A stretch of DNA of 64,000 nucleotides. It comes from a virus. The translations under genes were made by a program, and so were the position numbers. Location: IMG/VR virus record IMGVR_UViG_3300010354_000047, positions 62,001-126,000 of that record. One strand, 5' to 3'. Below the pieces are notes generated by a model. That model was not told the origin of the DNA. It worked only from the letters and a program-made list of their open reading frames with translations, and did not search any database. Numbering within the stretch: the stretch's first letter is position 1; every line of letters begins with the position of its first letter. Positions 5,323 to 60,509 of the stretch are shown in pieces.

Positions 5323-5571
5323 ATGAAATCTAAATTCTTGTGGCATAACTTTCGAGACTCTCGACATCTTAATGGAGAGGACGAGCGCGTCGATGGGAAT
5401 ATACGAAGGAATAGACTTGAAGGTCCTTCAAGCCCTTTACCTTCTAAAAGGGACTCGAGCAGAGAACCTTCCGCTAGGGAAGTAGAAAGGGCTAAAGAAG
5501 AAGCAGTAGGAGGAAAAAGGGACGAATGCAAAAAGGGGGAAGTCTTGCAGCGCTACTTGCATATACTATAA
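5323..5571 (+). CDS. HNH paralogue, N-terminal fragment (frameshifted)
   Basis: The frame starts with MKSKFLWHNFRDSR, which aligns without gaps with MNPLFNWHNFSDSR of the intact gene at 7210; this alignment sets both starts. It then reaches DECKKG, the beginning of the C-x5-C-x3-C-x6-C signature. At the run of five G at 5535-5539 it leaves the expected frame. Removing one G yields CKKGKSCSATC followed by IYYNDKC and joins the open frame that continues to 7153. The last ten residues here are thus out-of-frame. Treat 5323-7153 as one gene of about 610 residues that is broken or misassembled at this G run. Confidence 0.6.
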   Translation: MKSKFLWHNFRDSRHLNGEDERVDGNIRRNRLEGPSSPLPSKRDSSREPSAREVERAKEEAVGGKRDECKKGEVLQRYLHIL

Positions 5572-5602
5572 TGACAAATGTTTAGTAGCTCTCCCAGCCC
5601 CC

Positions 5603-7153
5603 TTGAGTGAGGGATTAAGAAAAGTAATAGGCATTCTAGAAGAAGCTACAGGAAGAGGTATTTCAGACGATGAAGCTGGAACTATCTTTGAGAAGCATCT
5701 TAAGTTGCAAGATGAGATAAAGTTTGGGCCGAATAAAGAACTCGTGGTCCCAGACCCGAAAGATCCCGACAATCCTGCCAAGTTTAAGGTCAATCTGGAG
5801 TTATTCCCTAAGAAACTCCAAGCCGAGGTTCAAAGAGACACGGAAGAACTTAACTCTAGATTAGAGGAAGTCAGGTCTAAATACGGTAAGACCGAGGGTG
5901 ATAAAAGAATCTCGGAAATAGTTGGCATCATGGTGCCAACGACGATAGCAAGGGAGAGGGAGAAAATCTCATACACACCTCCTGAAGCATTGGAGTATAT
6001 CTACAAGAATAGGAAAACTTTCGAGAGAATGAACGACATATACGAAGAACTTTCCAAACTCCAGAAAGAAGGAAAATTGACCCCGGAGATTGTTAACGAG
6101 AGGATGAAGGAAATAAGTCAAACCTTGCGACCTAGAATGGGGGAGTGGTCCCAAGAAGAAATAGCTTTAGCGGCTTCATTGTTAACCCCCTTAGAAAGAA
6201 ACTTCTTTGGAAAGGCGGGTTCCCTTTCAGAAGGGGGAGGTCTATTTCGAGCTGGAGACGAACTCCCCTCTTCCTACGGCGATCTTAGTGCAGCTACAGA
6301 TGAGCAGCAAAGGGCACGAGTCTTATTGGGAGCCCGAATTATTCTTGAGTCAAACGGAAAAAACATCTACACCGGGCAACCTCTAAATGTCCTGGAGTCA
6401 GATTGGGAGCACATGATTTCATTTGAAGCTATTCGCAGGAATGCGGAGGTGTACCATAATATAGGGTTGGTGTCTAGTAGGGACAATGGTGGAAAGGCCG
6501 ACAAACCACCCTCTTGGTTGTATAATACAGGGAAAGGTGGTTACATGTCCGGAATGAAGTTTGACGATAACGGGAAGCTTACGCCAGAAAGTAGAGCAAA
6601 GTGGGAGGCTAAAGAGCGAGCTAAAGTAGAAGTTAAGGAGTTAAAGCGAAAAGGTTTTGAGCTCTCTTACTACCAAAGGGGGCAAGAAAGAGTCCAAGCT
6701 CTTCAAGAATTGGTAGCAATGGTTCAGAATTCTAAGTTAAGAAGTAAAGATAAACTCGATGTCCTCAATAAAGTTGCCTTAGGTATGTTGCTGGAGGGTG
6801 ATCCGAAGTTTGCAGCGACAGCTGGAGGGGGAATTCAGTCACATGGAAGAGCAGGCAAAAGATGGTATTACTTTGGTTATGATAACCCTGAGTTTTGCAG
6901 GTTTGTTTCCAATAAATTGCTAGAACTTGCTGCGAAAGGCGATTCCGAAGGAATCAAAAAAGTGGGAGAAATTATGGAAGCTGAAGTCAATGAGAAATTG
7001 AATCCCACGATTAAAGAGCAATTGGGAACTAACTACACATACAAAGGTAAACCTTCCTTTAAGTTGGGTGATGAGGGGACAGAGCAAGTGCGAGAAATCA
7101 TGGAAAAATTATCCAAACAAGCCATGGAGCGTATAAAACAGGAGATAGGCTAA
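5603..7153 (+). CDS. HNH-like endonuclease paralogue, main fragment
   Basis: Open from about 5540 in this frame; the TTG at 5603 is only the first start-like codon, and the real N-terminus is probably the fragment at 5323 across a one-base frameshift. The protein is long, charged and helical, with a C-terminal HNH-type segment: IYTGQPL about residue 253, then DWEHMISF and a HNIGL.SSRDN stretch, parallel to IYTGQ/MYTGQ, LEHTIPF and an Asn-rich stretch in the neighbour at 7210. HNH enzymes use the His after the acidic residue to bind metal and cut DNA. The two genes are tandem paralogues. GC is visibly lower than average. Possible homing-type or effector nuclease. Confidence 0.65.
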   Translation: MSEGLRKVIGILEEATGRGISDDEAGTIFEKHLKLQDEIKFGPNKELVVPDPKDPDNPAKFKVNLELFPKKLQAEVQRDTEELNSRLEEVRSKYGKTEGDKRISEIVGIMVPTTIAREREKISYTPPEALEYIYKNRKTFERMNDIYEELSKLQKEGKLTPEIVNERMKEISQTLRPRMGEWSQEEIALAASLLTPLERNFFGKAGSLSEGGGLFRAGDELPSSYGDLSAATDEQQRARVLLGARIILESNGKNIYTGQPLNVLESDWEHMISFEAIRRNAEVYHNIGLVSSRDNGGKADKPPSWLYNTGKGGYMSGMKFDDNGKLTPESRAKWEAKERAKVEVKELKRKGFELSYYQRGQERVQALQELVAMVQNSKLRSKDKLDVLNKVALGMLLEGDPKFAATAGGGIQSHGRAGKRWYYFGYDNPEFCRFVSNKLLELAAKGDSEGIKKVGEIMEAEVNEKLNPTIKEQLGTNYTYKGKPSFKLGDEGTEQVREIMEKLSKQAMERIKQEIG

Positions 7154-7176
7154 CTTTCCGCTCAGATTAAATTAGC

Positions 7177-7185
7177 GGGTAAAGT
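7177..7185 (+). promoter_or_regulatory. Late-type box GGGTAAAGT
   Basis: GGGTAAAGT ends 24 nt before the ATG at 7210, in the short gap after the frameshifted paralogue. Confidence 0.45.
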
Positions 7186-7209
7186 CTGTGAAGTCTGTGG
7201 TCCGTGAGG

Positions 7210-8826
7210 ATGAATCCATTGTTCAATTGGCATAACTTCTCCGACTCTCGAAAGTTGCAAGGGGATGATGCGAGAGTTGAAGATTTGGGTCGTCATCAGG
7301 GCCTCACCGGTGAATCCTCCCCAGTTCCTTCGAAAAAGGCTCCGAAAGAAGCTCCAAGCCCCGCTTCAGGAAAGACCCCTGGCCAGTCTTCGGGAAAGGG
7401 TTCTAAAAAGTGTTCGAAAGGAAAGTCTTGTAGTGCGACCTGCATTTACAAAGGCGATGATTGCCTAAAGGGTCTTGACCCTAAAGTTGCAGAAGGTTTG
7501 AACCGTCTCGCCCAAGAAATTAAAAAGTTTGCTGGCAGAGGAGGGGGAGAAGAAGAAGCCCTCGCCGCCGTTAGCCGACTTGAGTCCTCTGGAACCATTG
7601 AAGGGCAAGCTAAGAAGATCGCAGCGTCTCTTAACGCTATGGATGAAAAGTACCCTGATCCGGCAGAGAGGGATGCTCGAATCTCGCAAGTATTTGACTT
7701 AGTCCTCCCTGGAATGGCTAAGAAAGGAGATACGGGTGAAAAACAAGCATATTCCGAGGGCCAGCTTCAAAGGTTGATCAACAACAAAGATATTGAAGAG
7801 TTTGAGAAGGTGTATCAATCCGTTAAGAAAGGGGAGATTAAGAATCTAGAAGAGTTTGAAGCAAGAATGAGGCCTCTAGCTCAAAGAAGAAGGGTCAATG
7901 ACATTTCGGACGAGCAAGTGGACCTGGCAATGGCACTACTCCCAAAAGACTTGATTGCCTCACTGGGAAAGCAAGGGCGACCAGGGATTTGGGGGAAATG
8001 GGGGGAGAACCAAGATTCGCTCGCTTCCCCTGAGATGGGCCACACCCCTAAAAATGAGTCTGCCACGGGTCGAGCCAGGTTGATTCTAAGAATTGGCATG
8101 GAAGAGGGTATGAGGGATATGTACACAGGCCAAAGAGTTGGCTTTGGAGACATTGACCTGGAGCACACGATTCCCTTCGGAGTTGGAAAGTCCTTTGCCG
8201 AGCATGGTTCAAATTTCGGTTTGACAACGAGACTCAATAATCGGGCAAAGGGGGACATCAGTCCTGAAGAGTGGCGTTCAAAGGTCCTAAAGCAGTACGG
8301 GATTTCCGACGGGGCGATCACAGACAAAACTCGGGAGAGACTAAGGAAAGAGCAAGCAGAGGCTCAGAAATATAACGACGACCGAGCAAGGGTTTCTGGA
8401 GGGACCTCTCCCGAAACTGTTGCGTCTGTTTTCAAGGGTATTGATGAGTCCGCTAACAAACCATTAATTAAACAGAAACTAAAGAACAAAGCCCTTCAAT
8501 CTATGGCGGGTTACACTGAAACTTATCTTCACGGTTTTAGAGCGAATCGAGCTGGGGCAAGCCGCCGAGTCTATATATTTCGTGGAACAGAGCTCGGAGA
8601 AAGAGTCATGGACGCCGCCGCATCGCAGATTGACAAATTTCAAGCTACTGGTGATAAAGGAAAAGTCGAAAAAGCTTTGGAGATTCTCAGGTCGGCAGGA
8701 CCCAGAATCAACGAGGCCCTAGATAGCAAGTACGGAAACCAAAGGCTAGATAAAGATGCAACCGAGGCAGTGAATGTTGCCAACGACATTCGAAAACAGA
8801 TACTCGAAGAGATAAACGCTCTATGA
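7210..8826 (+). CDS. HNH-like endonuclease with cysteine signature
   Basis: Intact 538-residue paralogue of the broken gene at 5323-7153. Order: a WHNFSDSR leader at residues 7-14, a Ser/Pro/Lys-rich linker, the C-x5-C-x3-C-x6-C signature (CSKGKSCSATCIYKGDDC) near residues 62-79, a long charged helical region, then an HNH-type core near 300-350 (MYTGQRVGFGDIDLEHTIPF followed by FGLTTRLNNRAKGD), and a helical tail. The His in LEHTIP is the candidate metal/catalytic residue. ATG 7210 is preferred over GTG 7204 because it aligns with the paralogue. The stop overlaps the next start (ATGA). A nuclease joined to the shared signature suggests a delivered or packaged enzyme, which is inference. Confidence 0.72.
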   Translation: MNPLFNWHNFSDSRKLQGDDARVEDLGRHQGLTGESSPVPSKKAPKEAPSPASGKTPGQSSGKGSKKCSKGKSCSATCIYKGDDCLKGLDPKVAEGLNRLAQEIKKFAGRGGGEEEALAAVSRLESSGTIEGQAKKIAASLNAMDEKYPDPAERDARISQVFDLVLPGMAKKGDTGEKQAYSEGQLQRLINNKDIEEFEKVYQSVKKGEIKNLEEFEARMRPLAQRRRVNDISDEQVDLAMALLPKDLIASLGKQGRPGIWGKWGENQDSLASPEMGHTPKNESATGRARLILRIGMEEGMRDMYTGQRVGFGDIDLEHTIPFGVGKSFAEHGSNFGLTTRLNNRAKGDISPEEWRSKVLKQYGISDGAITDKTRERLRKEQAEAQKYNDDRARVSGGTSPETVASVFKGIDESANKPLIKQKLKNKALQSMAGYTETYLHGFRANRAGASRRVYIFRGTELGERVMDAAASQIDKFQATGDKGKVEKALEILRSAGPRINEALDSKYGNQRLDKDATEAVNVANDIRKQILEEINAL

Positions 8827-9158
8827 TAACTGACACACGATTCCCTCGAGAAGATAGATCAATCCTAGAACAGCGCCTTCCTCCGGGAACTTTGAGCCAC
8901 CCGCAAGCCTTTGGCGTCTGGTCTATCTTCTTGCAATGCGATGACCCTTCCGACGTAGCTCACAAGTTTCGATCTTATCGAGACAGCAATCTTTGTTCAA
9001 TCCCTCGGGGCAACCTTCGAGCTATGCGTGACACTCTTATTCTCTCGATGCGTGAAGAGAACAAGAAGCTAAAGGTCCCGAGAAAGGAGAAGAAGAAAGG
9101 AGTGCATTATATGGACTATGAGAATGAATGGGTGGACAAACCAAGAACAGGAGCCTAA
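8823..9158 (+). CDS. Hypothetical protein, 111 aa
   Basis: Begins in an ATGA overlap with the HNH gene, so it is translationally coupled to it. The product is moderately basic with FGVWSIFLQCDDPSDVAHKF in the middle and a Lys/Arg cluster (KVPRKEKKKG) near the end. No cysteine signature, membrane segment or known family. Coupling suggests a function related to the nuclease, for example an accessory or immunity factor, but there is no direct support. Confidence 0.6.
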   Translation: MITDTRFPREDRSILEQRLPPGTLSHPQAFGVWSIFLQCDDPSDVAHKFRSYRDSNLCSIPRGNLRAMRDTLILSMREENKKLKVPRKEKKKGVHYMDYENEWVDKPRTGA

Positions 9159-9524
9159 ATGGAAAAAACTTCCACTAAAATAGAAGAGCTTTATAGCATA
9201 CCTTGTGGCCCCATGGATGTCTCCGCTGATTCAGTCTGCCGGCGCTCCTTAAGGGATTTTATGGATTCTCTTCTTGACAGATTGACTCGAGAAATAAACT
9301 CACATCCTCAGAAGACCCCCTCACTTCCAAAAGATCTTGAAGCTGGAGAAGGGGGAACAATCGTAGCAAAGGGGGCAGAAAATGAAGAGTCTCGAAAAGA
9401 GAGACTGATTCGAGAAGGAAAGCTCAGAGCGGACGTGTCAAATGAGGTTAGAAAATATCGAGAGCAGCTTCAGGGAAACAGTAAGATGCTTCAAGACATT
9501 TCGGGAAAGATTGAACCTTTTTGA
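9159..9524 (+). CDS. Hypothetical protein, 121 aa
   Basis: Starts on the base after the preceding TAA. The sequence is charged and helical, with two Cys in the first 30 residues (IPCGPMDVSADSVCRRS) and a long Glu/Arg/Lys-rich second half suited to a coiled coil. No family recognised. It closes the operon begun at 7210; the next gene has its own GGGTAAAAGT box. Confidence 0.6.
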   Translation: MEKTSTKIEELYSIPCGPMDVSADSVCRRSLRDFMDSLLDRLTREINSHPQKTPSLPKDLEAGEGGTIVAKGAENEESRKERLIREGKLRADVSNEVRKYREQLQGNSKMLQDISGKIEPF

Positions 9525-9540
9525 TACCGACTGGCGAAAA

Positions 9541-9550
9541 GGGTAAAAGT
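9541..9550 (+). promoter_or_regulatory. Late-type box GGGTAAAAGT
   Basis: Full GGGTAAAAGT ending 22 nt before the ATG at 9573. Confidence 0.55.
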
Positions 9551-9572
9551 TGAGCAGTTCACACCCTATGTA

Positions 9573-10205
9573 ATGAGCAACAGAATCAACGGAGACTTCA
9601 ACCAAGAAACTCTTGAAGCATTTCGTTCGGCTTATGCGAGTCGAGAGCTTGAACCGGAAGACCTGGAAATGGACCCGCGAACAGGCCTTCCTTCCAACGT
9701 CGTTCTCAACACATCCCCCTGGATCCAGCACACTGGACTCTGGAAAGCAAACGACGGAACCGATAGAAACTTTGTTCCTAACCAGGTTCTTATCCCTGGT
9801 GAAGAAGCCGAAGAGGATGAACTCGAAGAAATGACGGACGAAGAGCTTGAGAAGTTTCTTGAAGAGTTTTTATCAGAAGAGGGGCAGGACGAGGAGGTCT
9901 TCGAAGAAGACGACGACTTTTTCAGTTCATCTGATGATCAAGGGGGACTCTCTGACGAAGAGATTGACTCCCTTTTGGAAGAGATTCTAGAAGAAATGGA
10001 TCTAGAACCAGAGGACGAAGAGGAGGACCCGGATACTGAAATTTCGGATGAAGAGATCGATTCCTTGTTAGAAGAGATTCTGGAAGACTTCGACCCGGAA
10101 CCTGAAGACGAAGATGAGAACGACTCAGACAGTATTGGAATCTCAGATGAGATGATTGATGCACTGATAGCGGAACTTGAGGGGGAAACTCTTGACGAGG
10201 ATTGA
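9573..10205 (+). CDS. Extremely acidic repeat protein
   Basis: 210 residues. The first 30 residues (GDFNQETLEAF, then a YASR and EPEDLE) resemble the start of the gene at 14084 (GSFPEDILSQF, YAER, KEDLE). From about residue 75 the protein is dominated by Glu and Asp, with three imperfect copies of an S-D-E-(E/M)-I-D-(S/A)-L-L-E-E-I-L-E unit spaced roughly 30 residues apart. Such acidic proteins can act as scaffolds, DNA mimics or partners of basic proteins; nothing here decides between these. It stands first in a late-type unit with the tagged genes that follow. Confidence 0.7.
   Translation: MSNRINGDFNQETLEAFRSAYASRELEPEDLEMDPRTGLPSNVVLNTSPWIQHTGLWKANDGTDRNFVPNQVLIPGEEAEEDELEEMTDEELEKFLEEFLSEEGQDEEVFEEDDDFFSSSDDQGGLSDEEIDSLLEEILEEMDLEPEDEEEDPDTEISDEEIDSLLEEILEDFDPEPEDEDENDSDSIGISDEMIDALIAELEGETLDED
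9934..10190 (+). repeat. Three imperfect acidic repeats
   Basis: In-frame repeats encoding SDEEIDSLLEEILE, SDEEIDSLLEEILE and SDEMIDALIAELE with acidic spacers. The first two copies are identical in protein over 14 residues although their codons differ. Confidence 0.7.
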
Positions 10206-10208
10206 TGG

Positions 10209-10880
10209 ATGAAGCCCCGAAAGTGTGTGAAAGGAAAAGCTTGCTCAGGAGCGTGCGTTGATCCGAATGAGGACTGTAGAAAAACATTTCCTCCCGGGTC
10301 TCAACCAGCTCTAAAGAAAGCAGTTCACATGATTGAACACATTGGCGTCAACGTTCTTTCCTGGAAAGTTGGAAAGACTCTGGGACCGATGGTTTCCGGA
10401 TTTCTAGAGAACTCTTACGGAGTTCCGAGAGAAAGTTCCCAAATGCTTTCTGAAGCTTTGGTTCAGGCTGTGACAGCCGTCGGCCTTAACTACAAGAAAA
10501 TCAAGTCCCCTGAAGACCTTGTTCGAAACCTCTTAATTGAATCCTCAGCAGCAATTCTTGGTAAGAGCGCCCACTCCGGGGCCGAAGAATTTCTGTCTTC
10601 TGCCGAAGGAAAGGAGATGTTAAAGAGTGCTCTTCCCCTTTTAGCTGGAAAGTTTACGGGGATTGGGGTTGCATTTGCGGGCTCCAGATTGCCCAGTCTT
10701 TCTCAGCTTTCCCGAATAGTCGCTGAACGTTCACAAAGCGACATTCAGAAACTTCGTGGCTTTATGAACCCACAGATGTTTAACGCATCGGAGGAGAAAA
10801 CTATTGAGGATATCTCCCAGACACTGACTGATATCTTCATTTTGTCATTACTAAGGTCTTCACGTCTTTTGGGTCAATGA
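10209..10880 (+). CDS. Protein with N-terminal cysteine signature, 223 aa
   Basis: The C-x5-C-x3-C-x6-C signature (Cys6, Cys12, Cys16, Cys23) sits at the very N-terminus, after only MKPRK. The remainder is a mostly helical, moderately hydrophobic protein with Gly-rich helices (LPLLAGKFTGIGVAFAG) that could form an amphipathic or membrane-associating bundle, but no clean transmembrane segment. The gene starts three bases after the acidic protein and its stop overlaps the next ATG (ATGA). Function unknown. Confidence 0.65.
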   Translation: MKPRKCVKGKACSGACVDPNEDCRKTFPPGSQPALKKAVHMIEHIGVNVLSWKVGKTLGPMVSGFLENSYGVPRESSQMLSEALVQAVTAVGLNYKKIKSPEDLVRNLLIESSAAILGKSAHSGAEEFLSSAEGKEMLKSALPLLAGKFTGIGVAFAGSRLPSLSQLSRIVAERSQSDIQKLRGFMNPQMFNASEEKTIEDISQTLTDIFILSLLRSSRLLGQ

Positions 10881-11155
10881 AATTCTTCAATGAGAGGGCC
10901 TTCCTGGTTCGTTCTCTGATCGGCATCTTCGCCGTTCAATTTGTTACCGTGGGTTATCAAACCTTCCTCTGCCAACGCTCTGTGCTCACTGTGAAGGAGT
11001 CCGATCGCGTTTCCCTAATCTGCACGAATGCAGCAAACTCCTACAACGAAACCGGAAAACTGGCTTTGGCCACAATTTTGGCCCTTCTAGTTCCTTCTTC
11101 GAAGCAAGAGTCTCCCGAAAGTAGTGAAAAAGAGGATAATTCGAAGGAAGGGTAA
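10877..11155 (+). CDS. Small membrane protein, possible holin-like
   Basis: 92 residues. A hydrophobic segment at about residues 12-31 (VRSLIGIFAVQFVTVGYQTF) and a second at about 58-72 (GKLALATILALLVPS) suggest one or two membrane passes, with two Cys between them and a charged Ser/Glu/Lys tail. Coupled to the preceding gene by an ATGA overlap. Size and topology would suit a holin or other small phage membrane protein, but no lysozyme is adjacent, so function is open. Confidence 0.6.
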   Translation: MKFFNERAFLVRSLIGIFAVQFVTVGYQTFLCQRSVLTVKESDRVSLICTNAANSYNETGKLALATILALLVPSSKQESPESSEKEDNSKEG

Positions 11156-11159
11156 AAGT
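11150..11159 (+). promoter_or_regulatory. Late-type box GGGTAAAAGT
   Basis: Overlaps the end of the preceding gene (stop TAA lies inside it) and ends 20 nt before the ATG at 11180. Confidence 0.5.
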
Positions 11160-11179
11160 AACGATATTGTTGACAAGGT

Positions 11180-12166
11180 ATGTACGGAGCCAACTTAGAC
11201 TTTTCGGGTGTTCTACTACCCGGCACTGGCGGTTCTTTGAACGCTGCGACTGCCATCACATCGGATAAACTACAAGAGATGAATCGTTCTGGAAAGAAGT
11301 GGGGAATCGACAAAGAAACCGGTAACCTAACATTTCACAACGAAGCCACACTAAAGGCAAATCAAAAGACAAGAAGCAACCGTGAAAACCTGATCAACAG
11401 AGATCGAGATGCTCATTCCGACGGCCAAGAGGCTATGAAGGAAATCTTTGGTCGAAAGAAGGCTCGTATGGAAGCATTTCGGGAGATTAAGAAAAAAGAG
11501 TACAACTTCGCAGACGACACAGAAATGATGTCGATGCCCCAACCTTTCTCCCACAAAGAGGCCAAGGGTTGCTCAGCATCGTGCAAAGGTCCTGGAAAGT
11601 GCAGTTGTGATTCCTGCAAGAAGTCCCTCTATGACTCTAACTACAGGGAGTGGTCAACTAAGAAGAGAGAGAAGCTTCAAAAAGGTGAAATCAAAGGTGA
11701 ATTTGCCGGAAAAGGAATGTCTTTTCCGATTGCGAGTCCGAAAGATGTGGCCGCTGCGTGGGCTTCTGTGGGAAGGACTGAAAATCCTCAGGAAGTGATG
11801 GCCAACATAATTCGAATCTCAAAGAAGTTCGGCTGGGAGTCCGGCTTACCTCAAACTGTTAGAGACCGTCTGAATGAAGGAAAGTCGGGACTGCCCTCCA
11901 CTAATTTTCGCGAATGGTCTTCGGATAAGCGCAAGAAACTCTCTGAAGGTGACCTCAGAGGGGAGTTCGCTGGCCCAGGAATGTCCTTTCCGATCTCAAG
12001 CGCCGAAGATGTCTCCGCTGCCTGGTCTTCAGTAGGTCGCGCCGCCAATCCAAGAAAAGTGATGGCCGAGATCATTCGCATTGCGAAAAAGTTCGGTTGG
12101 GAGTCCGGTCTCCCCGAGACCGTAAAACAAAGACTTAACGAAGGAAAGTCAGGTCTACCGGAGTAA
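11180..12166 (+). CDS. Protein with two DUF6582-like repeats
   Basis: 328 residues in three parts: an N-terminal region of about 130 residues beginning MYGANLDFSG; a Cys-rich patch near 132-150 (GCSASCKGPGKCSCDSCKKS), different in spacing from the two main signatures; and two tandem copies, about 87 residues each, of a domain reading REWS..KR.KL, GEFAG.GMSFPI, AAAW.SVGR..NP..VMA.IIRI.KKFGWESGLP. The pattern of FPI, an A-rich helix, VGR and a final helix is that of the DUF6582 family, often attached to phage prohead proteases and other virion proteins. Position within the tagged cassette supports a virion or cargo role. Confidence 0.7.
   Translation: MYGANLDFSGVLLPGTGGSLNAATAITSDKLQEMNRSGKKWGIDKETGNLTFHNEATLKANQKTRSNRENLINRDRDAHSDGQEAMKEIFGRKKARMEAFREIKKKEYNFADDTEMMSMPQPFSHKEAKGCSASCKGPGKCSCDSCKKSLYDSNYREWSTKKREKLQKGEIKGEFAGKGMSFPIASPKDVAAAWASVGRTENPQEVMANIIRISKKFGWESGLPQTVRDRLNEGKSGLPSTNFREWSSDKRKKLSEGDLRGEFAGPGMSFPISSAEDVSAAWSSVGRAANPRKVMAEIIRIAKKFGWESGLPETVKQRLNEGKSGLPE
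11638..12163 (+). repeat. Tandem duplication of DUF6582-like domain
   Basis: Two in-frame copies (about 11638-11899 and 11902-12163) encode nearly collinear domains, sharing REWS, MSFPI, SVGR, NP, KKFGWESGLP and LNEGKSGLP. DNA identity is clearly above neighbouring sequence, indicating an internal duplication. Confidence 0.75.
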
Positions 12167-12169
12167 GAA

Positions 12170-12541
12170 ATGGGTGTAGAGTGGGTTATTGCCGTATTCG
12201 GCTTGGTTATAAGCGCAGCTGTATCGGCAACTGGTGGAGCTTTCTGGATTCAATTAAAGGGGTCGGAGAGAATCGACAAAATTAAAAGAGCATCCGACGA
12301 CCGCCTCGAAACTATGAGGAAAGCTTCAGACGAAAGAGTTGATCGACTGATTTCAGAAAACAAGTCACAAATGGAGATTCTTCTTTCACATGTTCAGAAA
12401 GTTGAGAACGTTCTAAATGACATGAGAGCTGAGCTTCCCACAAAATACGTCCTTCGAGAGGACTTTCTTCGTCTAGTGGAAAAAGTGGAAGAGCTTCGAA
12501 TCGATTCTTACCGTCCACGGGAACAGAGAAAAGATGCTTGA
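12170..12541 (+). CDS. Membrane-anchored coiled-coil protein
   Basis: 123 residues: an N-terminal hydrophobic segment at about residues 4-28 (WVIAVFGLVISAAVSATGGAF) followed by a long charged coiled coil, ending in PTKYVLREDFLRLVEKVEEL. This build is common in phages for lysis-associated or anchored proteins encoded near holins; the YVLRED stretch recalls such proteins. It starts 3 nt after the preceding stop and overlaps the next gene by 8 nt. A spanin or holin-partner role is possible but not shown. Confidence 0.6.
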   Translation: MGVEWVIAVFGLVISAAVSATGGAFWIQLKGSERIDKIKRASDDRLETMRKASDERVDRLISENKSQMEILLSHVQKVENVLNDMRAELPTKYVLREDFLRLVEKVEELRIDSYRPREQRKDA

Positions 12542-13046
12542 CTACGATTGGTCTCGACTTCAAAGCCTAGGTTTTGACACAAACTTTATCGAGAAGTCCC
12601 TTCCGGAAACCTATCGAAAAGGACTGACTAAGGAAGAGCAGGAGATTGCGAAAAAGGAAGCAAAAGATACTATGAAGAAGGCGGAAGAGGGAAAGGTTTC
12701 CTCTAAGGAACTCTACGCCGATTGGGAATCCGATAAAAGGTACAGAAAACGAAAGAAGAAGATCCCGCTTTCTCCCGCAACAAAAGCTTTTCACAAAGAC
12801 TTCGCAGAGGCAAAGTCCGGAGTTAGCAAATCTCTTCAAGAAAAGTCCAAGAAGTCTGGTATACCAGTGGGGGTCCTGAGGAAAGTCTTTCAAAGGGGTA
12901 TGGCCGCCTGGCGTTCCGGTCACCGGCCTGGTGTCGCCCCACAACAATGGGCTCACGCTCGCGTAAATTCCTTCATCACAGGAAAGGGAAAGGCTCGACA
13001 GGCTGACGAAGATCTGTGGAAGAAGGCGAAGGGTAAAAGAGCTTAG
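12534..13046 (+). CDS. DUF5824-like phage protein
   Basis: 170 residues, very basic. The C-terminal half has the recognisable pattern KKSGIPVGVLRKVFQRGMAA, WRSGHRPG, PQQWAHARVNSFITGKGKAR and a final DLW, which matches the phage family I know as DUF5824 (unknown function, frequent in cyanophages and other marine phages). The N-terminus YDWSRLQSLGFDTNFIEK is echoed by the 32-residue gene at 13982 (YDWGLHKSLGFDLTFVEN). The final codons overlap a GGGTAAAAG box serving the next gene. Confidence 0.7.
   Translation: MLDYDWSRLQSLGFDTNFIEKSLPETYRKGLTKEEQEIAKKEAKDTMKKAEEGKVSSKELYADWESDKRYRKRKKKIPLSPATKAFHKDFAEAKSGVSKSLQEKSKKSGIPVGVLRKVFQRGMAAWRSGHRPGVAPQQWAHARVNSFITGKGKARQADEDLWKKAKGKRA
13031..13039 (+). 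promoter_or_regulatory. Late-type box GGGTAAAAG
   Basis: Lies in the last codons of the DUF5824-like gene and ends 22 nt before the ATG at 13062. Confidence 0.4.
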
Positions 13047-13061
13047 TCCGCTTTCAGTAAA

Positions 13062-13982
13062 ATGCCACACTGGGGATCCTTTTCTCCCGACTCCTATGAG
13101 TCTTTTCTGAACAAAGTCGATAATCCTGTCGACTATATGGTTGTAGCGCCTGCACTTGCACCACGGGCCGCTACCAACCCTTCCTCTTTTATGATGGATG
13201 AACAAGAAGATGACGAGGGAGACATGTATGATTGGGAAGATGAAGGTTACGAAGATGAAGAAGACATTGAGCCAAATGCTGGAATGGCTATGAGCCAGTT
13301 GCGGTCAATGGCTGAAGACATCATGTCTATCCTCAGTGAAATGACTCCTTACGATAATCTTGAGCCCTGGGTTGCTGCCAAGATTACAATGAGTAAACAA
13401 AACATTTCCGCCGTCGCTGACTACCTCCGCTTTGGTTCAGACTTCTCCGAAGGGGAATTTGACTTTGCCCGATGTCAAAGACCCGACGGAAGCACCTATG
13501 GTAGCAGAGGAAAATGCAGGAAGGGGAGCGAAGTGTCGGCCGTGACTGAAGAGGAACCGAAACCGAAAACCAAAAAGAAGAAAGATGATCGATCCGCAAG
13601 CCCTGTTCCACCTTTTGAAGATGTGAAAGAGCTCACAGAGAAGGCAAAGGGTTTTACATATGGGAAATCTTGGACAAAAGACCATCAGGAAGTTTGGAAT
13701 CGCATTTTGGCGTCTCCGGACACTAAGACATTAGGATCACTCACAAGAAAACTCAATAAAGAAGTCTTTGATGATAGCGAGTACGACGTTAGTGCCGGTT
13801 TTCTAAAGGGGGCTCTGAAGACAATGAAAGAATGGCTCGAAGCTAACGGGAGGTCCGGAGTTGGTGCAGCGAAGGAAGCTCGAATTGCCGCAATGACGCC
13901 TGAAGAGCGTAAGAGGGCTGCGTCTGCTGAAAGAGTTGAAAGGGGAATAAGGGCAGGGGTTGTAAAGGGGAGAATGATATAA
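13062..13982 (+). CDS. Tagged protein with C-x13-C signature, 306 aa
   Basis: Order of parts: a WGSFSPDSYESF leader; an acidic stretch about residues 46-70; a helical segment (MSQLRSMAEDIM, then LEPWVAAKITMS) of a kind seen in several phage virion-associated proteins, where a helix pair containing EPW(V/I)..KI recurs; the C-x13-C signature with Cys138 and Cys152 (FDFARCQRPDG.TYGSRGKCRKGSE); a Lys/Pro-rich linker; and a helical C-terminal domain without known family. Both the leader and the signature are shared with other genes of the window. Its stop forms a TAATG overlap with the tiny next gene. Confidence 0.7.
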   Translation: MPHWGSFSPDSYESFLNKVDNPVDYMVVAPALAPRAATNPSSFMMDEQEDDEGDMYDWEDEGYEDEEDIEPNAGMAMSQLRSMAEDIMSILSEMTPYDNLEPWVAAKITMSKQNISAVADYLRFGSDFSEGEFDFARCQRPDGSTYGSRGKCRKGSEVSAVTEEEPKPKTKKKKDDRSASPVPPFEDVKELTEKAKGFTYGKSWTKDHQEVWNRILASPDTKTLGSLTRKLNKEVFDDSEYDVSAGFLKGALKTMKEWLEANGRSGVGAAKEARIAAMTPEERKRAASAERVERGIRAGVVKGRMI

Positions 13983-14080
13983 TGAATCTCTTGAGCAATT
14001 ACGATTGGGGCCTTCACAAGAGTTTAGGGTTTGACCTGACCTTTGTAGAAAATTTGAAGCGGAATCTAAAAGCAAGGTGA
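13982..14080 (+). CDS. Tiny protein, 32 aa, resembling the DUF5824 gene leader
   Basis: ATG in a TAATG overlap with the preceding stop. The 32 residues contain NYDWGLHKSLGFDLTFVENL, closely similar to the first 20 residues of the gene at 12534 (DYDWSRLQSLGFDTNFIEKS). It is therefore either a free-standing copy of that leader or the remnant of a gene whose body was lost. The tight overlap and the spacing of 3 nt to the next gene favour translation. Confidence 0.5.
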   Translation: MNLLSNYDWGLHKSLGFDLTFVENLKRNLKAR

Positions 14081-14083
14081 TTT

Positions 14084-14434
14084 ATGTTCGGTAGCTTTCC
14101 TGAAGACATCCTGAGTCAGTTTCAAAGAGACTACGCAGAGCGCTTTGACAAAGAAGATCTTGAGTGCAACAAACCTCGGTCAACTCCGAGCCACCCTAGC
14201 AGCTCACATATCGTGAAAGCTTGCTACCCTGGGGCTCCTGAAGGAGGTAAACTAATACGCTTTGGTCAACAAGGCGTTAAAGGTTCTCCCAAGAAAGAGG
14301 GAGAATCCGAAGCCTATCGTAAGAGGCGTGAATCCTTTAAGGCGAGACACGCAAAGAATATAGCGAAAGGGAAGTCCTCTGCTGCCTACTGGGCGGACAT
14401 TGTGAAATGGAGCGAACCCGATTTTGAGGGGTAA
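14084..14434 (+). CDS. DUF6321-like phage protein
   Basis: 116 residues. After an MFGSFPEDILSQF leader, the core reads HIVKAC, GGKLIRFGQQGVKGSPKK, then SFKARHAKNIAKGKSSAAYW and a WADIVKW end. This is a highly recognisable small phage protein family (DUF6321-type), basic, of unknown function and common near virion genes. The leader is shared with the genes at 9573, 13062 and 58325, whereas the core is not, which suggests that the leader is a separable module. Confidence 0.72.
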   Translation: MFGSFPEDILSQFQRDYAERFDKEDLECNKPRSTPSHPSSSHIVKACYPGAPEGGKLIRFGQQGVKGSPKKEGESEAYRKRRESFKARHAKNIAKGKSSAAYWADIVKWSEPDFEG

Positions 14435-14458
14435 TTGCTCTTTTATTATTGTGCTAAA

Positions 14459-14908
14459 ATGATCAGAAATTTCAACCTTCCTTGTGTGGACAACCTTCGA
14501 GAGGGAATCGACTACCGACTAGTGGAGTGGGATTTCGCATCCCAGCAACCATCCCGAACTCCTGGGACTCCTTGCCCTCCTGGAGAAAAGGTTGTTTTTG
14601 GAGTTTGTCGCAAGGTCGGTGACTCAGGGGAAAAAGACTTTGACTCCGAAAAGAAAACTTCCCAAGAATCTCAGCTTGAAGAGGAAGCCACACGTCAAGG
14701 TAAGAAAGTTTCTACCAAGGAAGAGGCTACCGCCGCTAACGTAAAAGGCTTTGAGACAGGTGGGAAGAAGTATGGCTGGGCAATTAAAAACGGAAAACCT
14801 GTCATTGTTGAATGGGGTTCCGTAGCAGGTACAAAGAAGAAGGGTAAGGAAAAAACAACTGCCCCTGAAGCACCAGCAGCAGCTACCACAACTCCGGCTC
14901 CTAAGTAA
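14459..14908 (+). CDS. Low-complexity protein with CPPGEKVVFGVC motif
   Basis: 149 residues from the ATG at 14459; an in-frame upstream codon at 14435 lies directly after the previous stop and is less likely. Near residue 40 there is PCPPGEKVVFGVCRKVG (C-x10-C), a third kind of short Cys motif in this cassette. A Lys/Glu-rich linker follows, then a small segment with KYGWAIKNGKPVIVEWGSVAG, and an Ala/Pro/Thr-rich tail. No known enzyme domain. Confidence 0.6.
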   Translation: MIRNFNLPCVDNLREGIDYRLVEWDFASQQPSRTPGTPCPPGEKVVFGVCRKVGDSGEKDFDSEKKTSQESQLEEEATRQGKKVSTKEEATAANVKGFETGGKKYGWAIKNGKPVIVEWGSVAGTKKKGKEKTTAPEAPAAATTTPAPK

Positions 14909-14914
14909 TTGAAA

Positions 14915-14924
14915 GGGTAAATAA
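14915..14924 (+). promoter_or_regulatory. Late-type box GGGTAAATAA
   Basis: Variant of the GGGTAAA box ending 19 nt before the ATG at 14944; TAGACT and TAAACT hexamers also occur between it and the start. Confidence 0.35.
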
Positions 14925-14943
14925 CTTTATAGACTAAACTTAT

Positions 14944-15789
14944 ATGGACCTTCCCACTAAGATTTCCGCCGATTACTTTCGAGGAACAGTTATGGAACCC
15001 GAACGAGTTTCCCCTTTTCGTTCAAATTACACCGAGTACGAGCGGCTAGGAATGAAGCACGAGGAGCTCTCAAAAAGGATTGAGGCTCTTCAAGATAAGA
15101 TGAAGCTCTCTCGTCAAAACGGCGCCTTCCAAAACCTTCAGATGCAGATGTCTGAGGTGAAACAACTCGTCAAGGATCGAGAGGAAATCGATGCTAAGAT
15201 GTCGACACTTGACTTGGCAAGAAAGAAGGACGACGATTACAGAGCTGCTGCGGGCTACGAAGCATCCTACGGTGAGTGCCTGGAATCTTTTGACTCCCGT
15301 GTCGAAAAGCTCGAAAGTCTTCTAGAAGAGTTCTCTGAGCTCGCTGCGAGCGAAAACTTTGACTTCACTCGTTGCGTTCGCCCCGATGGTTCTGTATATG
15401 GGACAAGAGGAAAGTGCAAGAAAGGTTCTGAAACTAGCGCCCCGGTCAAAGAAGTAAAAGTGTCATCAAAAGCTCTCAGACTTTCTGTAAGGGAGAAGTC
15501 TTCACACCTAAATGAAGTTAGAAAGCAGTTATCAGCTGGTGAAAAGAAGTTCAGGGCGATGGTCAAGGAGGCCAAAAAGAATCCCTCCCCTGAAAAGAAA
15601 GAGGAGCTGAAACTGGCCCAGAAAGCTTTAGCCCAGAAACAAAGAGAGGTTGCCAGAGCAGAAAGAGAAGCAGAGAAAGCCCTAAGACAGTGGAGTTCTG
15701 CTCGCAAAAAAGAAGAAAGAGCGAAGATGAACCCTGCGCAACTGCAGTCTGAAAGAAAGCTAGATAGAATTATTCGGGAACGAGGCTGA
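14944..15789 (+). CDS. Coiled-coil protein with C-x13-C signature
   Basis: 281 residues. Residues 30-135 form a coiled coil (Glu/Lys/Leu/Met heptads); the C-x13-C signature follows with Cys144 and Cys158 (FDFTRCVRPDG.VYGTRGKCKKGSE); from about 165 to the end a second, Lys/Ala/Glu-rich coiled coil runs almost unbroken. No catalytic domain is visible. It resembles in plan the frameshifted gene at 4482-5271, where the same signature precedes a long charged helix. Next gene follows after 6 nt. Confidence 0.7.
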   Translation: MDLPTKISADYFRGTVMEPERVSPFRSNYTEYERLGMKHEELSKRIEALQDKMKLSRQNGAFQNLQMQMSEVKQLVKDREEIDAKMSTLDLARKKDDDYRAAAGYEASYGECLESFDSRVEKLESLLEEFSELAASENFDFTRCVRPDGSVYGTRGKCKKGSETSAPVKEVKVSSKALRLSVREKSSHLNEVRKQLSAGEKKFRAMVKEAKKNPSPEKKEELKLAQKALAQKQREVARAEREAEKALRQWSSARKKEERAKMNPAQLQSERKLDRIIRERG

Positions 15790-15795
15790 CCTGAA

Positions 15796-51155: not shown

Positions 51156-51163
51156 GATCGAGA

Positions 51164-51505: not shown

Positions 51506-51521
51506 TTGGGGTCTTTATGCA

Positions 51522-52023: not shown

Positions 52024-52026
52024 GAA

Positions 52027-52055
52027 GTTTACCACAGCTTCCCACAGACTAAACT
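52027..52055 (+). promoter_or_regulatory. Promoter GTTTAC-N17-TAAACT before hli
   Basis: GTTTAC at 52027-52032, 17-bp spacer, TAAACT at 52050-52055, 20 nt before the ATG at 52076. Confidence 0.6.
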
Positions 52056-52075
52056 AACCCGTTACACTGAAACAA

Positions 52076-52675: not shown

Positions 52676-52725
52676 GAAACTAAAACCAACTCCACAACAG
52701 CTTCACAAACAACGAAACAAAACAG

Positions 52726-57129: not shown

Positions 57130-57138
57130 GGGTATAAC
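57130..57138 (+). promoter_or_regulatory. Late-type box GGGTATAAC
   Basis: GGGTATAAC ends 25 nt before the ATG at 57164. Confidence 0.45.
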
Positions 57139-57163
57139 CTAAAGATACTCCCCCCTCTCTTGT

Positions 57164-57829
57164 ATGGCGAAGTTACCCGAAGATCACTCAATAAAAGCTC
57201 ACAAAGACATCGTCGGGCAAACCATGCACAGATGGAAACACCACGACCCGAAACCTTTGCATAGCGGTCGAGGAAAGGGTGGAAAGGAAGGGAAAGTTGT
57301 TAAGTCAAAAGAGCAAGCCATCGCTATAGCTCTTAGCATGGCTGGGAGATCAAAAGATCACTCTGAAAGATTGAACTCCTTAGGCTTTTCGGAAGAGTCT
57401 GTGCGATCTGTGAACGAGATACTAAGCGGAAACTTTGACTTCACACTTTGCCAAAGGCCAAACGGAAGCTTATATGGTACATCTGGAAAGTGTAGAAAGG
57501 GGTCGGAAGTGAATCCCAAAGAGTCTCGGCCAGGAACCTCTTCTGGTGGGGGGTCAAAAAAGACTCTTTCGGAGATGGACGCTCACATCAAAAGTTTGTA
57601 CAAGAAAGAGACGGAAGCAAGAAATAACGGAGACGATTCTAAAGCCAGAGAATATATGAGGGAATCCGTGAAAGTCCTCAAAGCCTTGAATGAACGCCGA
57701 GACCTCTTGAATCAGAGACTTCGGGAACTTCAGGATAAAATGGATGACGCTGTGACAATCAGGGATCAACAAAGATTGTCGACAGCAGTAAGTAGCATTC
57801 TAAGCGAGTTGAGTGGGTTAAAGGGGTAA
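57164..57829 (+). CDS. Tagged protein with DUF6496-like N-terminus
   Basis: 221 residues. Residues 18-62 (QTMHRWKHHDPKPLHSG, then GKVVKSKEQAIAIALSMAGR) match the DUF6496 pattern, a small basic phage domain (MHRFKHG..., KQAIAIAL..AG). A LGFSEESVRSVNEIL stretch follows, then the C-x13-C signature (Cys96, Cys110; FDFTLCQRPNGSLYGTSGKC, RKGSEVNPKE), then a charged coiled coil to the end. This copy provides the reference showing where the frame should go in the frameshifted gene at 4482. Confidence 0.72.
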   Translation: MAKLPEDHSIKAHKDIVGQTMHRWKHHDPKPLHSGRGKGGKEGKVVKSKEQAIAIALSMAGRSKDHSERLNSLGFSEESVRSVNEILSGNFDFTLCQRPNGSLYGTSGKCRKGSEVNPKESRPGTSSGGGSKKTLSEMDAHIKSLYKKETEARNNGDDSKAREYMRESVKVLKALNERRDLLNQRLRELQDKMDDAVTIRDQQRLSTAVSSILSELSGLKG

Positions 57830-57836
57830 AGAACGT

Positions 57837-58325
57837 ATGACGACTCCCAGCTTCTCAAAAGAATCTCTCGAAAGGGTTAGGTCTCTCCTTCAAAGGGATG
57901 TAGACTGGGAAGGTCAGTTCTTGACCGGAACTTCTAAAGGAGCTTTCCCTTTGGTTGATCAAGTTCTCAAGCCGAGAGGTTTGCAAGGAATGGACATTGA
58001 CAACAGGCCTGGTTTACAGCGCGGGAGTCAAGGAAAAAGACGGGGAAGTTCCCTCTCAATCGCACAAGTTGCTCTTCCCAACGGAAACCCTCAATCGGGT
58101 CCTCGGTCACTCTCTACGAATCGCGGACTTGCAATGTTTGAAGAAGCTTGCAAAAAACGTCCGCAACCGAGAAGCCCCGAGCAAAACCAAGCGACGCAAG
58201 AGGCACAACAGGCGGCTCAACGACAGAACCAAACTTTTGACAAGATACCTGAGAAAAAAGTTGAAGAAATGGCTAAGAAGGGGGGAGAGGCAGAACGAAA
58301 GCCCCCACTACCTTACTGCAGCTAA
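57837..58325 (+). CDS. Hypothetical basic protein, 162 aa
   Basis: Starts 7 nt after the preceding stop and ends overlapping the next ATG. SFSKESLERVRSLLQRDVDW near the N-terminus resembles the leader seen in other genes. The rest is Pro/Arg/Gln-rich and low complexity, with QNQATQEAQQAAQRQNQ. An overlapping 130-residue frame at 57955 is rejected because it starts within this gene and lacks coupling. Function unknown. Confidence 0.55.
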   Translation: MTTPSFSKESLERVRSLLQRDVDWEGQFLTGTSKGAFPLVDQVLKPRGLQGMDIDNRPGLQRGSQGKRRGSSLSIAQVALPNGNPQSGPRSLSTNRGLAMFEEACKKRPQPRSPEQNQATQEAQQAAQRQNQTFDKIPEKKVEEMAKKGGEAERKPPLPYCS

Positions 58326-59068
58326 TGTACGGATCTTTCTCTCCTGAAGCCTTGCAGTTTTGGGACTTTGTTCGATGCCAAAGACCGAATGGGACCTTTT
58401 ATGGGACTTCCGGTCGGTGTAAGTCCGGTGTCCAAGTTTCCTCAAAACCTCAAAAACTTTCCGGAAGCCTACTTGGGGCGGGAAAAGAGAGCAAAGTATA
58501 TGACATTGGCAGGGACAGAGCACTCAAGGTGAGTACGGCAAACTATGAAAGTCTAGAAACACATCAGATTGCTTCTCAGCTCGGAGTCGCTCCAAGGCTG
58601 TACGCTCACGGAAAGATGCGTGATGGTAGAAACTTTCAGATCGTTGAGAAGGTTAAGACAAGCGATATCCATGGACTGGGACAACCCGGATCTAGGGCCA
58701 AGGAAATTGAAGACCTTGATGAAAATCAGCTATTTCGTGAAAAAGAGGCTTACAAAGCCAGTCTGAAACTTAATGCGGGCGGGGTTGCGCACGGGGACCT
58801 CCACGGAGGAAATATAAAGTGGGACGAGAACAATCAGAAAGCTATCCTTCTTGATTTTGATAATGCCACTAAGAGCTGGAAGGACGCTCGCGCTGAAGCT
58901 GCGAGTACGCTAAATACCATAGGTATTCGCCTCGAGAACTCGGGATATTACGATGAGGCCGACGAGGTGTACTCAAAAAGTTCGATAATTTCCCGGATAT
59001 CCTCGATAAAAATGTCAAAGGCTATCGAAGAGACTTCCGGTCTGCTAGATTCTGTTTTTCCGGGGTGA
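58325..59068 (+). CDS. Kinase-like protein with C-x13-C signature
   Basis: 247 residues. MYGSFSPEALQFW leader leads straight into the C-x13-C signature (Cys18, Cys32; FVRCQRPNGTFYGTSGRC). Kinase-like fold follows: LGAGKESKVYD at 50-60 (Gly loop), K68 (ALKVS), HGDLHGGN at 156-163 (D158), DFD at 177-179. This loop is of APH/RIO type. Substrate unknown. The leader, signature and kinase order is unlike the 15796 gene, which uses the other signature, so the same enzyme class occurs behind both tags. Confidence 0.75.
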   Translation: MYGSFSPEALQFWDFVRCQRPNGTFYGTSGRCKSGVQVSSKPQKLSGSLLGAGKESKVYDIGRDRALKVSTANYESLETHQIASQLGVAPRLYAHGKMRDGRNFQIVEKVKTSDIHGLGQPGSRAKEIEDLDENQLFREKEAYKASLKLNAGGVAHGDLHGGNIKWDENNQKAILLDFDNATKSWKDARAEAASTLNTIGIRLENSGYYDEADEVYSKSSIISRISSIKMSKAIEETSGLLDSVFPG

Positions 59069-59071
59069 CGG

Positions 59072-59099
59072 GTTTACTCCCGTAGGGTCGAGCTATAGT
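59072..59099 (+). promoter_or_regulatory. Promoter GTTTAC-N16-TATAGT before hsp20
   Basis: GTTTAC at 59072-59077, 16-bp spacer, TATAGT at 59094-59099, 53 nt before the ATG at 59153. Confidence 0.65.
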
Positions 59100-59152
59100 G
59101 GGTTTGTCGGGTTTCCCGACTCTCACACATTGCTTTTTAGCCCTGAGAACAA

Positions 59153-59542
59153 ATGACACGCAATTCTTCACTCGTTCCTAGCAGCAGTATCTTCGATAAC
59201 TCCAGCCACGATTTGGTAGAGTTTTTGATGAATAGGGGTAGCTTTGGCTTCCCCTCTGAGACCTACTTTAGATCCCGCTCCCTGGTCGTTAGACCGGTGA
59301 AGACAGAGGAGTCTGAAGCGATCATCGAGATTGAGACCCCTGGAATCAACCCCTCTGATATATCTGTTACAATCGAAGGCAAGTCTCTTACGGTAAAGAC
59401 ACCAAGAGGTGATGCCTATGTGACTATTGGTCAGAGGTTAAAGTCTGAGGACGCTACTGCTTCCTTGAAGCATGGCCTTCTCACGATCAGAGTTCCAAAA
59501 AGGGATTCTAAGATCGTAGAGGTCCAAGTTCACGAAGAGTGA
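59153..59542 (+). CDS. hsp20: Hsp20 small heat-shock protein
   Basis: 129 residues. Alpha-crystallin domain: AIIEIETPGINPSDISVTIE, GKSLTVKTPRGDAYV, then DATASLKHGLLTIRVPKRD, the PxK-like end of the fold. The C-terminal IxI-type anchor is weak. It prevents aggregation of host or phage proteins and is a known cyanophage accessory gene. Ends with a strong hairpin terminator. Confidence 0.93.
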   Translation: MTRNSSLVPSSSIFDNSSHDLVEFLMNRGSFGFPSETYFRSRSLVVRPVKTEESEAIIEIETPGINPSDISVTIEGKSLTVKTPRGDAYVTIGQRLKSEDATASLKHGLLTIRVPKRDSKIVEVQVHEE

Positions 59543-59551
59543 ATAGTTTCG

Positions 59552-59576
59552 GCCCCGCCTTTCGGTGGGGCTTTTT
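59552..59576 (+). terminator. Bidirectional-type terminator after hsp20
   Basis: GCCCCGCC-TTTC-GGTGGGGC with TTTTT. It lies between converging hsp20 (plus) and the small minus gene, whose stop codon lies within the T run, so it may serve both directions. Confidence 0.85.
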
Positions 59577-59736
59577 AGTATGCCATCAAAGCGTAGACTT
59601 CTTCCGCAGAGAGCCCACCATTTTTCTCAACTGCTTGAAGGATTTTCTCAGCCTTTTCATCAGCAGCAGGTGTGTTCATGCGAACGAGACCTTTTCTCTT
59701 TACCATTGCTCGAAAATTAGCGCTTTGTTCTTTCAT
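59575..59736 (-). CDS. Small protein, 53 aa, end of minus-strand operon
   Basis: Minus-strand frame with an ATG at 59734-59736 overlapping the stop of the kinase-like gene (ATGA). Product: MKEQSANFRAMVKRKGLVRM, NTPAADEKAEKILQAVEKNG, GLSAEEVYALMAY. Short, basic then acidic helix. Below usual length cut-offs but supported by the overlap and the terminator after it. Function unknown. Confidence 0.65.
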   Translation of the reverse strand: MKEQSANFRAMVKRKGLVRMNTPAADEKAEKILQAVEKNGGLSAEEVYALMAY

Positions 59737-60509
59737 TTTAGGTTCTGAATTTCTTGAAGGTACTCTTCTGCTAACCTAACTTTCTTAGCCTTATTCGCTT
59801 TACTCGTTGATTTCGTGATCTTCTTATACTCTTCTAGGTATTTGTTGACAATCTGAAAGTACGGATCCGTAGAGAGTTCGGGATTGTCCCACCCAATTAG
59901 CTTCGCTATCTTTGACAAGTCCTGCAAAACTCGATTCGGCTGCACGGAGGTCTTAACAATCAATCCAAAGTCAACCAGCTTCACATTGTTGTTGTCCACA
60001 AGAAACTGCTGACTATGTGCGTCACCATGGGCATAACCTATTCTATGCAGGTCTCGCAGAGCGTAAGCGGCTTTTCTAGCCTGGGTAGCATTCATGATAG
60101 CCTCCCCTTCTTCTTTCCCGAAACTCTTCCAAAGGGGTTTTCCTTTGGCTAATTCCATCTCAAGATGCTTCGGACTTGAAGAAATAATTCTGGGGGAATG
60201 GCCTAACTCCCCCATGCGAGTCGCGACCTGAATCTCTTCGTCTCCAAACTCCGAAGACTCATCCTTCATAATCTTGACAACTCTCTTTCCGTCGGGGCTT
60301 ATACGAACCTCCCCTTGGTAACCTTCCGCAAGTTTGTTCCAACTGCTGTAATCAGGCTCTTGGTTCAGTCTCCCTGAAGCTTGCTCCAGAACAGCTCCCC
60401 ATTTTCCGGGGAGAGCTTTACGGCATTTTTTGCTGCTAGAAACGCAGGCTCCTCCGCAGCTTATGCCTTTTGAGCAGTTTAGCTTTCCTCTCACGATATT
60501 ATAGCCCAT
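59733..60509 (-). CDS. Kinase-like protein with C-x5-C-x3-C-x6-C signature
   Basis: 258 residues. Signature at Cys12, 18, 22, 29 (LNCSKGISCGGACVSSSKKC). Kinase-like core: K79 (VVKIMKD), HGDAHSQQF at 161-169 and DFG at 180-182. The usual Asn three to five places after the catalytic Asp is Gln here (HGDAHSQQ), so activity may be altered or the protein pseudokinase-like. Overlaps the peptidase by 19 nt. Third kinase-like protein of the window. Confidence 0.72.
   Translation of the reverse strand: MGYNIVRGKLNCSKGISCGGACVSSSKKCRKALPGKWGAVLEQASGRLNQEPDYSSWNKLAEGYQGEVRISPDGKRVVKIMKDESSEFGDEEIQVATRMGELGHSPRIISSSPKHLEMELAKGKPLWKSFGKEEGEAIMNATQARKAAYALRDLHRIGYAHGDAHSQQFLVDNNNVKLVDFGLIVKTSVQPNRVLQDLSKIAKLIGWDNPELSTDPYFQIVNKYLEEYKKITKSTSKANKAKKVRLAEEYLQEIQNLK

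Follow-up and report, generated by a model that had tools for sequence, protein, structure and literature searches.

In phage T4, the capsid targeting sequence of IPI-III and Alt is a short N-terminal label on otherwise unrelated proteins that are packaged into the head and ejected, and for IPIII, no more than the first 10 residues are needed for packaging (PMC9026906). MuF-type phage polymorphic toxins (PMC5576092) are linked to the phage head and combine a constant trafficking part with a variable C-terminal effector. Phage polyvalent proteins (PMC5512222) are predicted to be packed into virions as early effectors and include portal fusions; the word "cysteine" is absent from the main text of that article. 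Here, we analyze a stretch of 64,000 nucleotides (the window; positions 62,001 to 126,000 of the IMG/VR record IMGVR_UViG_3300010354_000047) in which two short cysteine patterns, C-x5-C-x3-C-x6-C (tag 1) and C-x13-C (tag 2), recur on different proteins. We consider it likely that tag 1 is an N-terminal address label of proteins that become part of the virion and are probably ejected, along with the DNA, into the cyanobacterial host. An earlier note on this sequence had proposed a modular set of cargo proteins in which short elements are shared and effectors vary. The data support this proposal, which can most likely be sharpened to that of a virion-cargo label; the term "cargo" is helped by reports on the virion proteome of phage S-CBWM1.

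The virus record from which the window derives has 136,373 bases and, by its photosynthetic reaction-centre gene (Photo_RC, E = 8e-92, G000:12017-12919), is that of a cyanophage. The record is related to Synechococcus phage S-CBWM1, with TerL proteins that are 58-59% identical over about 520 amino acids, and the window and S-CBWM1 have the gene order TerL-PhoH-tagged HNH-kinase-baseplate in common. Homologous terminase and shared gene order, the traits of the S-CBWM1-like phages (Aokuangvirus), mark the phage as S-CBWM1-like, which is not a claim of membership in the genus.

Recurrence of tag 1 and exchange of effectors

Five window genes had been proposed to carry tag 1. The pattern is present in all five, but a six-frame scan revealed that it is intact in exactly four open reading frames (ORFs), whereas in the fifth (5323/5603) it is split by a frameshift. 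The intact copies are CSKGKSCSATCIYKGDDC (7411..7464, plus strand), CVKGKACSGACVDPNEDC (10224..10277, plus strand), CNKGKSCKGTCIQRSDNC (15805..15858, plus strand), and CSKGISCGGACVSSSKKC (60423..60476, minus strand), and the remainder of the 136-kb record contains no further copy. Shuffling of residues within all ORFs of at least 60 amino acids generated a mean of 0.04 copies, and four copies were reached in 0 of 2,000 shuffles; in the 48 viral records assembled on the basis of the KGK version of tag 1 (see below), a relaxed pattern gave about 68 matches versus 0 for the reversed pattern. These two controls rule out an occurrence by chance. A recent duplication is equally ruled out, since the intact tags of the window are only 56-67% identical in DNA and are therefore not fresh copies. 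The extended consensus is CxKGKxC[GS]xxC[IV]xxxxxC, comprising 18 residues, and tagged proteins start, for example, with MARCNKGKSC, MKPRKCVKGK, or MSKRCTKGKSC. The reported preference for the N terminus was confirmed, as the tag lies within 130 residues of the assigned start in 53 of the 54 phage-type tagged proteins longer than 150 amino acids (median, 25.5).

The proteins behind the tag are those that had been suggested: HNH-like proteins (5603 and 7210), kinases (15796 and 59733), and a helical protein (10209). The intact HNH-family protein (7210..8826, plus strand; 538 amino acids from the ATG at 7210) may be called HNH-like on the basis of a motif, a weak profile match, and a weak fold match, namely that of its AlphaFold2 model (mean predicted local distance difference test [pLDDT] score, 75) to the Cas9 HNH domain 8f43 in Foldseek (probability, 1.0; E = 0.077). 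The second HNH-family gene (5323..7153, plus strand) is broken by a frameshift into 5323-5571 and 5510-7153, and its downstream part is 53% identical over 547 amino acids to an intact gene in L321. The helical protein (10209..10880, plus strand), to which no function was assigned, has a tagged homologue in L352 (42% identity over 174 amino acids). The protein encoded at 15796..17121 (plus strand) is protein kinase-like, as judged by a PHROG kinase profile (E = 9.6e-7), matches to Pkinase/APH/ABC1, and the similarity of its model to protein kinases in Foldseek (probability, 1; E of about 1e-6). Profile matches identify the gene at 59733..60509 (minus strand) as a RIO/ABC1-like kinase. Directly upstream of the latter lies a C39-like peptidase (PHROG endolysin; 60491-61210, minus strand), and gp168 of phage S-CREM2 is a similar C39 peptidase.

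To collect relatives, IMG/VR was searched at the DNA level with a codon-degenerate form of the KGK version of tag 1, which yielded 100 stretches. Two kinds of proteins were represented, namely, phage proteins tagged on the N-terminal side and short proteins, most of which (30 of 34) have the motif at the C terminus. Tag 1 is not confined to one enzyme family. According to Pfam, NCBIfam, and PHROGs, the tagged phage proteins include several kinase classes (Pkinase/APH/ABC1/RIO), HNH-like proteins (HNH_4, Cas9-like), and zeta toxin-, DnaJ-, and LRAT-like proteins; HExxH metalloproteases and a HipA-like protein were recognized by eye, and the helical family is a further carrier. Among the matches listed for Pfam, NCBIfam, PHROGs, and PDB, no family name covers the tag itself. 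Multidomain relatives are few (L054 and L460); in L054, a single polypeptide consists of a lambda-type portal, tag 1, and a metalloprotease-like domain, in this order.

A terminase related to that of the window is present in 34 of the 48 tag 1 phage records, in most cases with 60-77% identity; some of the remaining records are short, and others exceed 60 kb and probably represent other phages. The order in this lineage is terminase, PhoH, slot A, w8823, w9159, slot B, w11180, DUF5824, w13062, w14084, w14435, w14944, slot C, and baseplate. The corresponding window segment, running from the terminase and PhoH genes through the cargo island, spans 1478..17121 (plus strand); in relatives, tagged effectors replace one another at the slots of this segment. 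Slot A, between PhoH and w8823, contains a tagged HNH gene in most phages and two in the window; the exceptions are a tagged kinase (L352), a tagged metalloprotease (L354), and an empty slot (L362). Slot C is usually occupied by a tag 1 kinase, with a tag that is sometimes degenerate (L353, L357, and L359). The label is thus constant while the effector is exchanged at a syntenic slot. Tagged genes are also adjacent to each other in related phages, a check that the earlier note had suggested, and L033 has three consecutive ones. The tag recurs at conserved rather than random positions across many phages.

Label swapping and virion proteins

A search for tag 2, with the pattern [FWY]DFxRCxRP[DN]GxxYGxxGxCRKG, yielded 99 stretches, and this tag occurs together with tag 1 in records. 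BLAST clusters of the cargo, built after removal of the tags, contain mixed labels. In the kinase cluster, 26 proteins have tag 1, 13 have tag 2, and 2 have a capsid targeting sequence; in the metalloprotease cluster, 3 have tag 1 and 4 have tag 2; and in the HNH cluster, 28 have tag 1 and 2 have tag 2, with all counts derived from fetched, partly overlapping loci and hence not representing independent events. Over about 207 amino acids, the tag 1 window kinase at 59733-60509 shows 51-54% identity to tag 2 kinases in L282, L307, L345, and L347, and the tag 1 kinase at 15796 is 38% identical over 288 amino acids to a tag 2 kinase in L317. The same kinase class consequently occurs behind either tag, in agreement with the suggestion that domains had been swapped between tags.

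In the window, tag 2 is found on the plus strand at 4575..4619 (EFARCMRPDGTFYGTRGKC, in a gene that is frameshifted after the tag), 13473..13517 (ORF 13062-13982), 15373..15417 (ORF 14944-15789), 57449..57493 (ORF 57164-57829), and 58376..58420 (kinase-like ORF 58325-59068). In L267, L290, L320, and L332, both tags are combined within the same large ORF (about 960-1450 amino acids).

Among 50,697 phage records, S-CBWM1 was the sole match to the tag peptides. Exactly five of its ORFs carry tag 1, namely, gp106 (HNH-like), gp113 (RIO), gp161 (ChoK), gp162 (APH), and gp174, which is annotated as "virion structural protein" and adjoins the major capsid protein. Because the tag begins upstream of the annotated gp113 and gp161 starts (MG450654, 70410 and 117842), which fall at or within it, these starts are probably wrong, and the true starts would lie upstream. 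PMC10665884, a second-hand source that cites Xu et al. 2018, reports APH, ChoK, and Rio2 kinases as well as NMNAT in S-CBWM1 virions, and NMNAT is also reported in PMC9602691. The S-CBWM1 NMNAT carries tag 2, so that tag 1 or tag 2 flags all four enzymes that these papers name for the virions; many more such proteins are predicted in uncultured phages. The fourth S-CBWM1 kinase, the PknB-like gp173, is untagged and does not figure among the virion enzymes named in PMC10665884.

In the T4-like cyanophage S-CREM2, the virion-detected kinase gp14 and the cytidylyltransferase gp154 start with capsid targeting sequences of the M-x2-F-x2-FLTE type, and close to the start of the Cas9-like gp12 there is a comparable RFASFMAEA; the S-CRM01 kinase starts with MISFDQFLSE. 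Many virion-detected enzymes of S-CREM2 (OR473000) and S-CRM01 (HQ615693), a Cas9/HNH-like protein included, have a T4-type capsid targeting sequence at the start.

From these data, together with the portal fusion in L054 and the probably flexible tag in two structure models (see below), we infer a role of the tag in driving packaging. A prohead component, which could be scaffold, capsid, or portal, would serve as the common binding partner of the label while the head is assembled, and any effector located behind the label would thereby be packaged. HNH-like nucleases, kinases, metalloproteases, and other proteins with presumed effector activities would be exchanged behind the label through recombination, and the packaged cargo would be ejected together with the DNA into the cyanobacterial host. 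Tag 2 may serve this purpose as well in these phages, and in T4-like cyanophages, the T4-type capsid targeting sequence on homologous cargo may take its place.

Alternative roles of the tag and related motifs

Two AlphaFold2 models, based on 24 and 9 aligned sequences, were usable for the enzyme parts (mean pLDDT, 75 and 71.5), whereas the tag scored below 50, and it is probably a flexible end in these models. A profile search detected no relative of tag 1 in PDB (best E = 0.65). In the variants L359, L277, L308, and L270/L302, C1 and C3 are lost together and C2 and C4 are kept, which suggests that the cysteines pair as C1-C3 and C2-C4. The pattern GxPCGxS[HYF]IPxxxxC, which retains only C2 and C4, was found in 116 viral stretches. 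Its variant GKPCGxS[HYF]IPxxxxC (L369-L469) occurs in up to two copies per protein, within phage proteins of 900-1500 amino acids to which no family is assigned and on some kinase and LRAT proteins. The similarity of this short motif points to a relationship of the large two-cysteine group with tag 1.

In bacterial genomes, the same CxKGKxCGxxCIxxxxxC core was found in at least 118 loci (L114-L231), mostly of Proteobacteria. The carriers are small, mostly leader-bearing proteins that end in CCKxCxKGKACGxSCIxxxxxCxxxxGCAC[DN]G, and no Pfam or NCBIfam matches were noticed for small secreted proteins of this bacterial type within the scanned set. The motif is also present in an SNase-domain protein of the viral set (L019), and some bacterial matches appeared SNase-like in context by eye. 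The phage and bacterial forms, which have only a short stretch in common, may be homologous or convergent. It is conceivable, though improbable, that tag 1, the variant GKPCGxS[HYF]IPxxxxC, and the bacterial micro-domain are one mobile redox-sensitive module that serves as a general effector-virion adaptor in many phages beyond cyanophages; loading or release could then be controlled by paired cysteines that open or close as the module passes from the cell to the particle and on to a new host.

The occurrence of a similar C-terminal motif in small, mostly signal peptide-like bacterial proteins and in SNase proteins points to a use outside phages, and the tag is retained even in the portal fusion L054. 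Both observations would fit a role after ejection, in which a small folded, metal-bound or disulfide-bonded element guides effectors once they are injected, such as to membranes or nucleic acid, or protects them, and the packaging signal resides elsewhere. We regard this as unlikely, since homologous cargo can bear any of three labels (tag 1, tag 2, or the T4-type capsid targeting sequence), and a packaging role shared by all three is simpler than three distinct post-ejection signals. The near uniformity of the HNH family, with its strong excess of tag 1 over tag 2, is what would be expected if the tag were part of the enzyme, that is, a zinc- or disulfide-stabilized N-terminal extension maintained by descent and unrelated to location. 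The presence of the same tag on many unrelated folds, the different tags on homologous kinases, and the low confidence of the tag in the models, in which no packing against the enzyme is predicted, make this explanation very doubtful. Finally, the tag could be an element of virion structure, such as a linker or decoration, and the tagged proteins could be minor head proteins instead of injected effectors. The annotation and position of gp174, the existence of a portal-tag fusion, and the variant tags inside very large phage proteins are in line with this notion; most partners, however, are enzyme-like and freely exchanged between phages at one slot, and we give it little credence.

Several points weigh against the proposal of a virion-cargo label. 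A packaging label would seem redundant in the portal fusion, and packaging offers no explanation for a related micro-domain at the C terminus of small secreted bacterial proteins. The authors of PMC10665884 caution that enzymes of this kind may copurify with virions. In addition, the window kinase 59733..60509 is 35% identical to an S-TIM5 kinase that has neither tag nor clear capsid targeting sequence, although a kinase is reported in S-TIM5 virions. Packaged and injected phage effectors are hard to recognize, as they have no common fold, and a sequence label would allow virion cargo to be listed from genomes alone. If the virion-cargo reading is correct, the same kinases, nucleases, and nucleotidyltransferases are borne by labels that are unrelated to each other (capsid targeting sequence, tag 1, and tag 2); it would also enable a direct test of the proteins injected by cyanophages and possibly provide a short tag with which phage heads could be loaded with proteins.

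Interrupted genes and comparison with described systems

The split copy of tag 1 (5527..5581, plus strand; CKKG / KSCSATCIYYNDKC) results from a +1 indel, one extra base in AAAAAGGGGG (A5G5) at 5530, such that the upstream frame ends in DECKKG and the downstream frame contains KSCSATCIYYNDKC; the copy is intact in L046, L321, and L363. The tag 2 gene at 4482-5271 has two breaks past its tag, one at an A8 run (4620) and the other near 5030, and L353:6383-7546 is an intact relative of 388 amino acids. Three breaks thus fall within about 1.1 kb. Programmed frameshifting was considered for 5530 and 4620 and rejected: both sites are slippery, yet relatives have intact genes and there is a further break near 5030, so that local decay or sequence error is the likelier cause. 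Elsewhere in the window, two neighboring proteins (61906-63862) have collagen-like GxTGxT repeats.

The comparison with the systems described above can be summarized as follows. (i) The bacterial micro-domain has the core in common with tag 1 and differs in its C-terminal position, usually behind a hydrophobic leader, and in its additional CCxxC and GCAC[DN]G; the libraries searched provided no function for it. (ii) Like the MuF-type toxins, the tagged proteins join a constant part to a variable effector. The constant part of the toxins is the MuF domain, in contrast to the 18-residue tag found here, and no MuF Pfam match was obtained in the 59 tagged proteins scanned. (iii) The polyvalent proteins overlap with the tagged proteins in effector types, including metallopeptidases, as well as in portal fusions. 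They differ in that several effector domains are combined per polypeptide, whereas most effectors described here are short polypeptides of their own that have the tag in common, and each tagged protein of the window has a single recognizable cargo region. (iv) The T4 capsid targeting sequence comprises about 10 N-terminal residues, with key positions 4 and 7 and processing at positions 8-10. The cargo of S-CREM2 conforms to this description, and homologous cargo bears the T4-type sequence in both S-CREM2 and S-CRM01. Tag 1 has no similarity to it, being an 18-residue four-cysteine motif often placed after up to about 130 residues, and no L/I-x-E processing site was seen with it. Tag 1 nevertheless shares the hallmark of a label common to otherwise unrelated virion-packaged proteins, since it occurs on several folds and gp113, gp161, and gp162 are reported in S-CBWM1 virions. 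Most likely, tag 1 is thus a functional parallel of the T4 capsid targeting sequence and not a member of it.

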